DNA of 15,157 nucleotides from an uncultured Sphingomonadales bacterium (GTDB lineage Bacteria; Pseudomonadota; Alphaproteobacteria; Sphingomonadales; Sphingomonadaceae): the NCBI GenBank assembly GCA_903958285.1, contig CAJBSR010000249.1, forward strand, positions 1-15,157. Reading direction: 5' to 3'. The notes under the pieces were generated by a model. That model was not told where the DNA came from and ran no database searches. It was given only the letters and a program-made list of their open reading frames with translations. Below are positions 5,299 to 7,670 of this stretch, piece after piece. Each line of letters starts with the position of its first letter. Within the stretch, counting starts at the first letter, position 1. The position numbers were made by a program, and so were the translations under genes.

Positions 5299-5913
5299 AT
5301 GTTCACAGGCATCATCACCGACGTTGGCACAATCACCAAGGCGGAGCAGCGCGGCGACCTGCGTCTGATCATTCAGTGCGGCTATGACATGTCGGGCGTG
5401 GATCTTGGTGCCTCTATCGCCTGCTCGGGCGTGTGCCTGACTGTCGTGGACAAGGGTGCAGACTGGTTCGCCATCGACGCCTCGGCGGAAACAGCGTCCA
5501 AAACGTCGAATGCGATGTGGGCGCAGGGACGCCGCCTCAATCTGGAACGTGCGCTCAAGATCGGCGATGAACTGGGCGGCCATATCGTGACCGGCCATGT
5601 TGATGGCGTTGGCACCATTGCTGCCATCGCGCCCGAAGGCGACTCGCACCGTGTCTCCGTGACGGTGAGCGCGGAGATTGCGCCTTATATCGCGACGAAG
5701 GGCTCCGTAACCGTCGACGGCGTCTCGCTGACGGTCAACAGCGTCGCCGACAATGCGGACGGCACCGCAACTTTTGGCCTCAACATCATTCCGCACACTT
5801 GGGATGTTACAGCGCTGGGCGATCTGGCGGAGGGCCAGCAGGTCAATGTCGAGATTGATGTCCTCGCCCGCTATCTAGCGCGGATGCAGGAACGCTTGAG
5901 CGCAGCGCGATAA
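5299..5913 (+). CDS. ribE: Riboflavin synthase alpha chain
   Basis: The enzyme (204 aa) catalyses the final step, dismutation of two 6,7-dimethyl-8-ribityllumazine molecules into riboflavin and the RibD product. It has the diagnostic N-terminus MFTGIITDVG and two homologous lumazine-binding repeats, about residues 1-90 and 97-190. The first contains SGVCLTVV, the second SVTVDGVSLTVN, joined by GGHIVTGHVDG at 93-103. The upstream-extended frame from 5143 is rejected because the family starts at MFTG and AAAAGGGGCGG before the ATG at 5299 serves as the ribosome site. Thirteen bases separate it from the ribD stop. A 55-bp gap follows before the next gene, the largest inside the cluster. Confidence 0.96.
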   Translation: MFTGIITDVGTITKAEQRGDLRLIIQCGYDMSGVDLGASIACSGVCLTVVDKGADWFAIDASAETASKTSNAMWAQGRRLNLERALKIGDELGGHIVTGHVDGVGTIAAIAPEGDSHRVSVTVSAEIAPYIATKGSVTVDGVSLTVNSVADNADGTATFGLNIIPHTWDVTALGDLAEGQQVNVEIDVLARYLARMQERLSAAR

Positions 5914-5939
5914 TCTCAATGTGAAATGAATCATTGACG

Positions 5940-5957
5940 ATCACACTATGATGTGAT
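5940..5957 (+). promoter_or_regulatory. Candidate operator: inverted repeat ATCACA-N6-TGTGAT upstream of ribB fusion
   Basis: The bases read ATCACA-CTATGA-TGTGAT, a perfect 6-bp dyad with a 6-base spacer, 11 bp before the ATG at 5969. A third half-site, TGTGA, lies at 5920-5924, and a shorter imperfect dyad AATGA-A-TCATT lies at 5925-5935. TTGACG at 5934-5939 is a good -35 match. Seventeen bases further on is T-rich TTTTTA (5957-5962), a weak -10, so the dyad would fill the spacer of a possible promoter. An alternative -10, TATGAT, lies at 5947-5952. The dyad is seen directly; the operator and promoter roles are inferred. Confidence 0.45.
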
Positions 5958-5968
5958 TTTTAGGGTTT

Positions 5969-7246
5969 ATGTCTACGCAACTCATCGAAAAACTCCGCAG
6001 CCTCGTCACCGACGGTGGCTTGTCCCGTTCCGGCCTTGCCCGTGCAGCCGGTCTCCATGCCAACACGCTGCGTGATCTGGACCAGCCCGACTGGAACCCG
6101 ACGGCAGAGACGCTGCGCAAGCTGGAAGCTTATCTCTTCGCCAGCGACGATAGCCCCGCCCTCGTCCCGATTGAGGAAATCATTGAGGAAGCGCGCAACG
6201 GCCGCATGTTCATCCTCGTCGATGATGAAGACCGTGAGAATGAAGGCGATCTCGTTATCCCCGCGCAGATGGCGACGCCCGATGCCATCAACTTCATGGC
6301 AACGCATGGCCGCGGGCTTGTTTGCCTGACGCTCACCAAAAAGCGTGTTGAGGAGCTGGGTCTGGAACTGATGAGCCGCGCCAATGGCACGCGCCACGAA
6401 ACAGCGTTCACCACCTCAATTGAAGCACGCGAAGGCGTGACGACCGGCATTTCAGCAGGCGATCGTGCGCGCACCGTGTCTGTCGCCATCGATTCGTCCA
6501 AGGGCCGCGATGATATTGTCACGCCGGGCCATGTCTTCCCGCTGATCGCCCGTGATGGCGGCGTGCTGGTGCGCGCCGGCCACACCGAAGCGGCGGTCGA
6601 TATTTCGCGCCTCGCCGGGCTCAACCCATCCGGCGTGATTTGTGAGATCATGAAGGATGACGGCACCATGGCGCGCATGGATGACCTCGTCTCCTTCGCG
6701 CGGATGCACAATTTGAAGATGGGCACGATCCGTGACCTTATCGAATATCGCCGCAAACATGACCATCTGGTCGAGTGCGTGTCTGAAGCGCCTTTCGTCT
6801 CGGATTACGGCGGGGAATGGACGGCCAAGACCTATCGCAACAAGGTCGATGGATCGGTCAACATTGTCCTGCAAAAGGGCCGCGTGGTCGATGGGGAGCC
6901 GACGCTGGTGCGCATGCACGGTATCTCAATCTTCTCCGATGTGTTGGGTGCCCCCGGGCCGCGTAAGCGGACCCTGCAGCGGGCCATGGCGGAAATCGGC
7001 GCGGCTGGCGCAGGTGTGATCGTGCTGTTGATGCCTGGTGACGCGGACTCGCTGACGCGTGAAATCAGCGCGGCCTCTGGTAAGCCGCCCGAAATGGATT
7101 TGCGCAGCTATGGCATTGGCGCGCAGATCCTTGCCGATCTTGGCATTCACGACATGATTCTTCTCACCAACGCCCACCGCAATGTCGTTGGCATTGAAGG
7201 CTATGGCATCAACATCGTGGGCGAGCGCCCCATTCCGGAGGCATAA
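5969..7246 (+). CDS. ribB: HTH-fused 3,4-dihydroxy-2-butanone-4-phosphate synthase with degenerate RibA-like domain (RibBX type)
   Basis: This 425-residue protein has three parts. Residues 1-56 form a Cro/CI-type helix-turn-helix ([19 protein letters not shown], then [15 protein letters not shown]). Residues about 68-270 are a full DHBP synthase, which converts ribulose 5-phosphate to the four-carbon precursor of lumazine: [11 protein letters not shown] at 84-94, [19 protein letters not shown], and [21 protein letters not shown]. Residues about 290-425 align with GTP cyclohydrolase II but lack its essentials. The zinc region HSECLTGD...RCDCG is replaced by [18 protein letters not shown] (316-333) with no cysteine, and the RGIGL motif is absent. 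This matches the RibBX variant known in proteobacteria, in which the C-terminal domain has no cyclohydrolase activity. The start is set by the intact HTH reading frame. AGGG at 5962-5965 is only 3 bases from the ATG, so initiation is weak or leaderless. Confidence 0.93.
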
Positions 7247-7250
7247 GTCC

Positions 7251-7670
7251 ATGGCAAAGTTTCTGATCGTCGAAGCCCGTTTTTATGATCACCTCAACGA
7301 CATGCTTGTCGAAGGGGCAAAAGCGGCGCTCGAAGATGAAGGCCATAAGGCCGATGTCATCACCGTCCCCGGTGCGCTCGAAATCCCCGGCGCCATCGCG
7401 CTGGCGGCCGAAAGCGGGCGCTATGATGGCTTTGTCGCCATCGGTGTCGTCATTCGCGGGGAAACCTATCACTTCGAAATCGTCGCAGGCGAAAGCGCGC
7501 GCGGTATCATGGCGCTGACCATGGACGGGATTGCCATCGGTAATGGCATTTTAACGGTCGAGAATGAGCAGCAGGCCCTCGTCCGCGCGGATCCGACGCA
7601 AAAGGACAAGGGCGGCGAAGCGGCCAAGGCCGCGATTGCGCTGCTGGAGTTGAAGTCTCAGTTCGGTTGA
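7251..7670 (+). CDS. ribH: 6,7-dimethyl-8-ribityllumazine synthase
   Basis: RibH (139 aa) condenses the RibD product with the RibB product to form lumazine, the substrate of riboflavin synthase, and usually assembles into pentamers or 60-mer capsids. Motifs visible are [17 protein letters not shown] at the N-terminus, [11 protein letters not shown] (about 39-49), [19 protein letters not shown] with the catalytic His at residue 74, and [12 protein letters not shown] followed by [11 protein letters not shown] near the C-terminus. The protein is slightly short for the family (about 150). GGAG at 7237-7240 is the ribosome site, 10 bases before the ATG, which excludes the longer frame from 7182. 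It is 4 bp after the ribB fusion stop and is the last gene before the intrinsic terminator. Confidence 0.96.

Follow-up and report, generated by a model that had tools for sequence, protein, structure and literature searches.

The window analysed here is a stretch of 15,157 nucleotides (contig CAJBSR010000249.1) from an uncultured Sphingomonadales bacterium of the family Sphingomonadaceae. It carries on its plus strand a gene in which a helix-turn-helix (HTH) domain is joined to an enzyme of riboflavin biosynthesis. A sequence-only reading of the window had described this gene as a Cro/CI-like HTH in frame with RibB, a 3,4-dihydroxy-2-butanone 4-phosphate (DHBP) synthase, and had proposed that the protein might control its own expression through a dyad just upstream. 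The features that bear on this proposal are the following.

5969..7246 including the stop codon, plus strand: fused gene HTH-RibB-RibX (ribBX), 425 residues, from the list of open reading frames and from Pfam/NCBIfam
5969..6142, plus strand: Cro/CI-like HTH domain, residues 1-58, from profile, conservation and model evidence
6056..6079, plus strand: putative recognition helix, residues 30-37 (HANTLRDL), placed by alignment with SinR and general knowledge of the fold
6173..6748, plus strand: DHBP synthase (RibB) domain, residues 69-260, with the active-site motif
6779..7228, plus strand: RibX, a GTP cyclohydrolase II-like domain without zinc cysteines, residues 271-420
5941..5956, no strand: predicted proximal operator TCACACTATGATGTGA, with one mismatch to TCACATNNNNATGTGA, 12 bp before the ATG start codon
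5909..5924, no strand: putative remnant of a distal operator, 32 bp upstream, of which the right half alone survives (ATGTGA, 5919-5924)
5934..5939, plus strand: -35-like TTGACG, the operator lying within the 17-bp spacer behind it
5957..5962, plus strand: TTTTTA at the presumed -10 position
7251..7670, plus strand: ribH (lumazine synthase), 4 bp past the ribBX stop and presumably co-transcribed
5299..5913, plus strand: ribE (riboflavin synthase), the upstream neighbour

Domain searches bore out the in-frame junction of HTH and enzyme. PF00926 covered residues 69-260 (E = 4.5e-83, Pfam), and the active-site motif of this domain aligned with those of solved DHBP synthases. The enzyme had been taken for RibB; its DHBP synthase part does look intact, but a third, PF00925-like domain at residues 271-420 (E = 2.8e-32, Pfam) had been overlooked. 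The zinc motifs EC-x-TGD and [RK]CDC occurred in none of 74 RibBX sequences, on which ground we rejected a plain bifunctional RibBA, and the separate RibA of the same genome carries both motifs. By the sequence features tested, the architecture is that of RibBX, which passages of PMC10012899, citing Brutinel et al. (2013), describe as a functional RibB joined to an X domain that has no GTP cyclohydrolase II activity. A riboflavin kinase domain was not found in the fused protein, where Pfam returned only PF00926, PF00925 and a weak HTH.

Searched as a single sequence, the N-terminal domain scored poorly in Pfam (HTH_31, E = 0.033, 14.9 bits against a cut-off of 27). When a profile built from 17 HTH sequences was used, it matched solved Cro/CI-type repressors (SinR 5tn0, E = 4.6e-4; HipB, E = 0.0078; C.BclI, E = 0.0098), and by this sequence profile the domain is a Cro/CI-type (XRE) HTH. 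The hidden Markov model check against HTH_3 and HTH_31 that the sequence-only reading had proposed gave a divided answer, in that the window protein alone stayed below the Pfam cut-off and, at E ≤ 0.01, HTH_3 was found in 8 and HTH_31 in 7 of the 17 members. Some close homologues also bear a precomputed HTH_3 (PF01381) annotation. The model of the HTH domain had a mean predicted local distance difference test score (pLDDT) of 82, and Foldseek retrieved Cro/CI-type repressors with it, but all matches had E ≥ 0.12; DSSP assigned no regular helix to the model at residues 27-45, where the recognition helix is expected. The full-length model was poor (pLDDT 66.5, with residues 116-204 below 50) and was left out of the analysis.

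Conservation within the domain was strong. Across 42 fusions, a count that excludes L021 and L085, residues A24, A27, G28, L29, H30, N32, L34, R35, W42, N43, P44, T45, T48, K51 and L52 were invariant, and over residues 19-37 the ratio of nonsynonymous to synonymous differences (pN/pS) was 0.052 in 18 hand-picked pairs. Unconserved recognition-helix residues had been named as a finding that would count against the HTH; H30, N32, L34 and R35, all in the putative recognition helix, are among the invariant ones.

The homologue search called for earlier showed that the fusion extends through much of the family. Matches starting at residues 1-7 were present in 12 of 13 genomes of the genus and in 32 of 46 further genomes of the family; 12 of the others in the latter set had RibBX without the HTH, and 2 had no match. 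Matches in the order's other families began at about residue 55 or later. All fused-gene matches from residues 1-7 were fetched, and HTH-less matches in part. With the HTH as query, 159 of 199 sampled family genomes gave a match at E ≤ 1e-8, at least one of them (G029) as a stand-alone gene only, and nearly all of the matches listed lie in open frames of fusion length, the RibB part not being checked individually. In a 385-genome sample of the class, only the window's family and two stand-alone genes (in G372 and G453) were matched at E < 1e-10; beyond the family, most matches of the class-wide HTH search were weak and of generic XRE type. Named genomes, when scanned, yielded at least 577 confirmed stretches of 595. 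In the best 80 of the 577, which were analysed, the DHBP motif was in frame in 80/80, and they came from Sphingorhabdus, Chakrabartia, Novosphingobium, Sphingomonas, Sphingopyxis, Aquisediminimonas and other sphingomonads.

The palindrome TCACATnnnnATGTGA lies upstream of the HTH-RibBX fusions. With up to three mismatches and within 80 bp of the start, it was found at all 44 HTH-RibBX loci, window included (28 exact, 11 with one mismatch, 4 with two and 1 with three; L083, which has no start, is not counted), so that the dyad just upstream of the window's gene, which lies at 5941-5956, proved to be a conserved element. By the same measure it was absent from all 32 HTH-less RibBX genes, where the best match had 4-7 mismatches; among these 32 are one fragment (L084) and genes that are a genome's second or third copy, and the start codons were picked by script. 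All 79 testable loci from named genomes had the dyad at two mismatches or fewer (49 with none, 25 with one, 5 with two), leaving out L212 with its 9 bp of upstream DNA; these loci overlap those of the G-numbered genomes, and the two counts are not independent. One HTH-RibBX gene, L085 (G019:C1:2389220-2396263), is broken by a stop or frameshift and has an intact upstream dyad.

Taken by itself, the window dyad is within chance: the window gave 2 matches at two mismatches or fewer, and 56 of 200 shuffles reached 2. Its significance comes from conservation across relatives and not from the window alone. The ribBX site is the only one in the window with fewer than three mismatches to the operator, and it is the sole site at one mismatch or fewer in the source assembly (2.98 Mb, 91% complete), which led us to reject a regulon spanning other rib genes. 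Among the 13 genus genomes, 8 had one exact site, always at ribBX, 4 had none, and G011 had seven, two of them at ribBX. Of 31 further HTH-bearing genomes, 18 had one exact site, again always at ribBX, and 13 had none, so that a single exact site lay at ribBX in 26/26 HTH-bearing genomes. Exact sites were missing from 11 of 12 HTH-less genomes of the family; the single exact site of G029, a genome with HTH-less RibBX, lies some 2.8 kb away from the stand-alone HTH gene of that genome. A reversed control pattern gave no match in either exact-site search, among the genus genomes or among the further family genomes. These results indicate that the palindrome is largely specific to the ribBX promoter and that it accompanies the HTH, being missing where the HTH is missing.

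G011 also holds two clusters of three ribBX-type operators each, L102 (4001, 4093, 4126) and L103 (3001, 3034, 3136), five of the six being exact and one having a mismatch, with one pair per cluster 33 bp apart. The clusters precede what we take to be a Lon-like protease gene and a gene resembling 3-deoxy-D-arabino-heptulosonate 7-phosphate synthase.

To describe the promoter, identical upstream stretches were merged, reducing 123 to 111 unique fusion promoters. The dyad ended within 44 bp of the ATG in 101 of them and at 45-62 bp in ten, and the 84 promoters in which it ended 8-16 bp from the ATG were aligned. TTG[ACT] began 7 bp before the dyad in 50/84 and 6 bp before it in 14/84, and a TAA-like box stood at +16 relative to the dyad as a weak preference across the family. 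Farther upstream, an ATGTGA half-site was seen at offset -22 in 46/84 promoters, and the best whole distal site (four mismatches or fewer) was at -32 in 41/84. A generic promoter scan found no plus-strand promoter and did not report the -35-like TTGACG. Because the dyad fills the 17-bp promoter spacer, repression is favoured over activation. A -10 box at +16 to +21 would place the transcription start near the ATG (+28), and a leaderless or nearly leaderless ribBX mRNA is likely.

The gene neighbourhood was counted over 124 unmerged fusion loci. ribH lay directly downstream in 97/124, and ribE lay within 300 bp upstream in 37/124. Since ribH directly follows most fusions and ribE is near fewer, the controlled unit would mostly be ribBX-ribH, in agreement with the ribB-ribH target originally proposed.

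The earlier statement that the window lacks a flavin mononucleotide (FMN) riboswitch also held, as no Rfam family, RF00050 included, gave a match in the window at the gathering threshold. With stricter filters, none was found in the source genome (91% complete), and none exceeded the cut-off in the 59 genomes of the window's family among 98 searched; G009 had one sub-threshold match. FMN riboswitch control of this locus was rejected on these grounds. Five of the 98 genomes (G081, G062, G074, G072 and G090; L241-L245), all from other families of the order, had FMN riboswitches over the cut-off. Since none was seen above the cut-off in the family's 59 genomes, an autorepression loop may act there as a main local control on the pathway.

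The catalytic parts of 71 RibBX sequences, with L068, L021, L082, L083, L084 and L085 left out, were placed on a midpoint-rooted tree, in which 42 HTH-bearing and 14 HTH-less sequences fell into one clade (support 100/96). The HTH-less sequences were nested inside the HTH-bearing clade, with seven label changes, at least five of them forced by well-supported branches; several of the nested HTH-less sequences are long-branched second copies of unsure placement. On the simplest reading, the HTH was apparently gained once and lost several times. No HTH-less RibBX gene retains the dyad, and because dyad and HTH are only about 12 bp apart, a single deletion could take out both. Four genomes (G003, G033, G044 and G047) have one or two extra RibBX copies without HTH or dyad (L064, L066, L067, L068 and L069) beside the HTH-bearing copy.

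Stand-alone homologues of the HTH, mostly 60-90 residues long, were found in genomes (L070-L073, L108 and L109) and in 27 viral contigs. Three of them (L070, L071 and L073) adjoin a Peptidase_S24 repressor by Pfam, and a divergent CI-like gene was present at 10 of the 26 viral loci that could be tested; of the sixteen without one, nine form a single near-identical group. The fused gene itself has ribE, in the same orientation, as its upstream neighbour. A palindrome in which 5 or more of the 6 arm pairs match, with its end 9-17 bp ahead of the start, preceded 13 of 24 non-redundant stand-alones (5.3% of shuffles), and a perfect 6/6 palindrome preceded 7 of 24 (0.19% of shuffles); the shuffles preserve base composition only. 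The other 11 (L217, L219, L222, L225, L230, L234, L235, L236, L237, L239 and L109) had no clear proximal palindrome at the script-chosen start, although L236 and L237 have one farther upstream.

The predicted half-sites follow the recognition helix. HxN[TS]LR helices pair with TCACAT-type sites in 44/44 fusions, as they do for the prophage gene L070/L214. The dyad of L234 (HPNTLR) is poor and is alike only in an ATGTG arm. For HxN[TS]L[LY] helices the partner is GCATAT in L215, L216, L218, L231, L233 and L073, six of the seven non-redundant stand-alones of this kind; the exception is L239 (HRNSLY). [KRHS]DT[TV]LR helices pair with nCGCAT on at least one arm (L221, L232, L071 and L108). The prophage-like region L070 of G029 (G029:C1:215217-221384) has operator sites at 156, 187, 2935 and 2966. 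They form two predicted operator pairs, with 31 bp within a pair and 2.8 kb between the pairs, like left and right operators, and share the specificity of the ribBX operator; the RibBX copies of G029 lack the HTH.

Phage HTH homologues with dyads in the same place and matched to the helix point to the capture of a phage cro gene together with its operator, and a cro-operator cassette was probably fused to ribBX; we infer that the transfer ran from phage to host. In 2 of 29 genomes from another family of the order (L074, G087:C1:1171777-1176947, 714-2207; and L249, G630:C294), CoaBC, an enzyme of coenzyme A synthesis, carries a related HTH at its N-terminus. No clear TCACAT-type dyad precedes either gene, and this fusion may represent a second capture by a cofactor enzyme, independent of the first.

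We consider it highly probable, from these comparisons of sequence, that the RibBX fusion is a bifunctional enzyme-repressor that acts on its own promoter through a domesticated phage Cro-like HTH and operator. An ancestor of the Sphingomonadaceae would have gained the fusion when a phage Cro-like repressor and its own operator were joined to the 5' end of ribBX. DHBP synthase is a dimer, and a RibBX dimer would place two HTHs on the palindrome at 5941-5956. Bound in the spacer of the ribBX-ribH promoter, they would block RNA polymerase, so that more enzyme would mean less ribBX-ribH transcription, and binding would gain cooperativity from the second site, 32 bp farther upstream, in promoters that keep it. 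DNA binding and repression by RibBX are what we infer from the domain, the operator and their joint distribution. Self-regulation through the upstream dyad, as proposed in the sequence-only reading, thus gains strong support from comparative genomics; repression and activation had been left even there, and the spacer position tips the balance towards repression.

That the HTH instead binds the dyad as an activator, or as a switch responsive to flavin or substrate, seems to us rather unlikely. RibBX would then be a metabolite sensor like RbkR or NadR. Ligand-sensing HTH-enzyme fusions do exist (BirA, NadR and RbkR), and the 59 family genomes with no FMN riboswitch over the cut-off leave room for other flavin control. 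However, the operator sits over the -35/-10 spacer, a repressor's position, and a pathway-wide sensor is unlikely with no other site at one mismatch or fewer in the source assembly. Modulation by a ligand (substrate, product or flavin) may nevertheless be laid on top of autorepression.

We regard as very improbable that the dyad serves another regulator, for example of the CRP/FNR type, and that the HTH has no DNA target and serves structure or protein contacts instead. The half-site TGTGA is similar to those of CRP, and binding of the dyad by the HTH is a prediction. Yet the order of the arms is opposite to that of a CRP site (TGTGA-N6-TCACA), and this, together with the specificity of the site for ribBX, led us to reject a CRP/FNR-type site. 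A generic regulator would be expected to have many sites, not a single exact one at ribBX in genome after genome, and dyad and HTH are absent together. Related stand-alone HTH genes, moreover, have dyads in the same place whose sequence tracks the recognition helix. An RNA hairpin in the leader, acting by attenuation or start-codon occlusion, could fold from an inverted repeat 12 bp from the ATG if transcription began upstream, but it is barely credible and was rejected because the conserved TTGAC at -7 and TAA at +16 flank the dyad and place it inside the promoter, and because a hairpin leaves unexplained both the absence of the dyad without the HTH and the link to the recognition helix.

As an extension of autorepression, RibBX might also bind prophage operators of the same specificity and hold them under standing repression, and the CI or Cro of an incoming phage could switch the host's vitamin B2 gene. 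We think this quite unlikely. In keeping with it, the only prophage seen with exact TCACAT operators, a single case, sits in G029, where RibBX has no HTH; G011, whose RibBX bears the HTH, has five extra exact sites outside ribBX.

If autorepression by RibBX is true, a family-wide takeover of a phage repressor along with its operator would have turned a biosynthetic enzyme into its own repressor, giving a compact natural feedback loop on enzyme count. It may control vitamin B2 supply in a family where no FMN riboswitch over the cut-off was found in 59 genomes, and it predicts cross-talk between host metabolism and prophages. Among the papers listed from the partial open-access literature, judged by titles and the starts of abstracts, none was on an HTH-RibB or HTH-RibBX fusion.

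Published RibBX is generally described as beginning at the RibB domain. The proteins described here resemble it in their RibB domain, their X domain without zinc cysteines, the separate ribA and the frequent position beside ribH, and differ from it in that a Cro-like HTH and a predicted operator precede the RibB domain. BirA, NadR and PutA likewise combine an enzyme and a DNA-binding regulator in one chain, as predicted here; their DNA binding is governed by ligand or redox state, whereas the loop expected for RibBX is plain autorepression. The archaeal RbkR, an HTH-riboflavin kinase, had been mentioned earlier as a comparable fusion. In it, too, an HTH is joined to an enzyme of the flavin pathway, and PMC8305020 lists the protein as both regulator and enzyme. 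Unlike the present case, RbkR involves another enzyme and another domain of life, and the sole site in the window's assembly is at ribBX. A phage Cro repressor with its operator is the closer parallel. The CI-Cro immunity modules of phages, in which an S24-type CI gene is divergent from a small HTH gene and the operators are paired, share with the fusions a homologous HTH, in many cases a 16-bp palindrome 12-13 bp before the ATG with a TTG box ahead of it, and a second site 31-32 bp upstream. Unlike phage Cro, the HTH of RibBX is followed by a metabolic enzyme, and the one exact site of 26 HTH-bearing genomes is that at ribBX.
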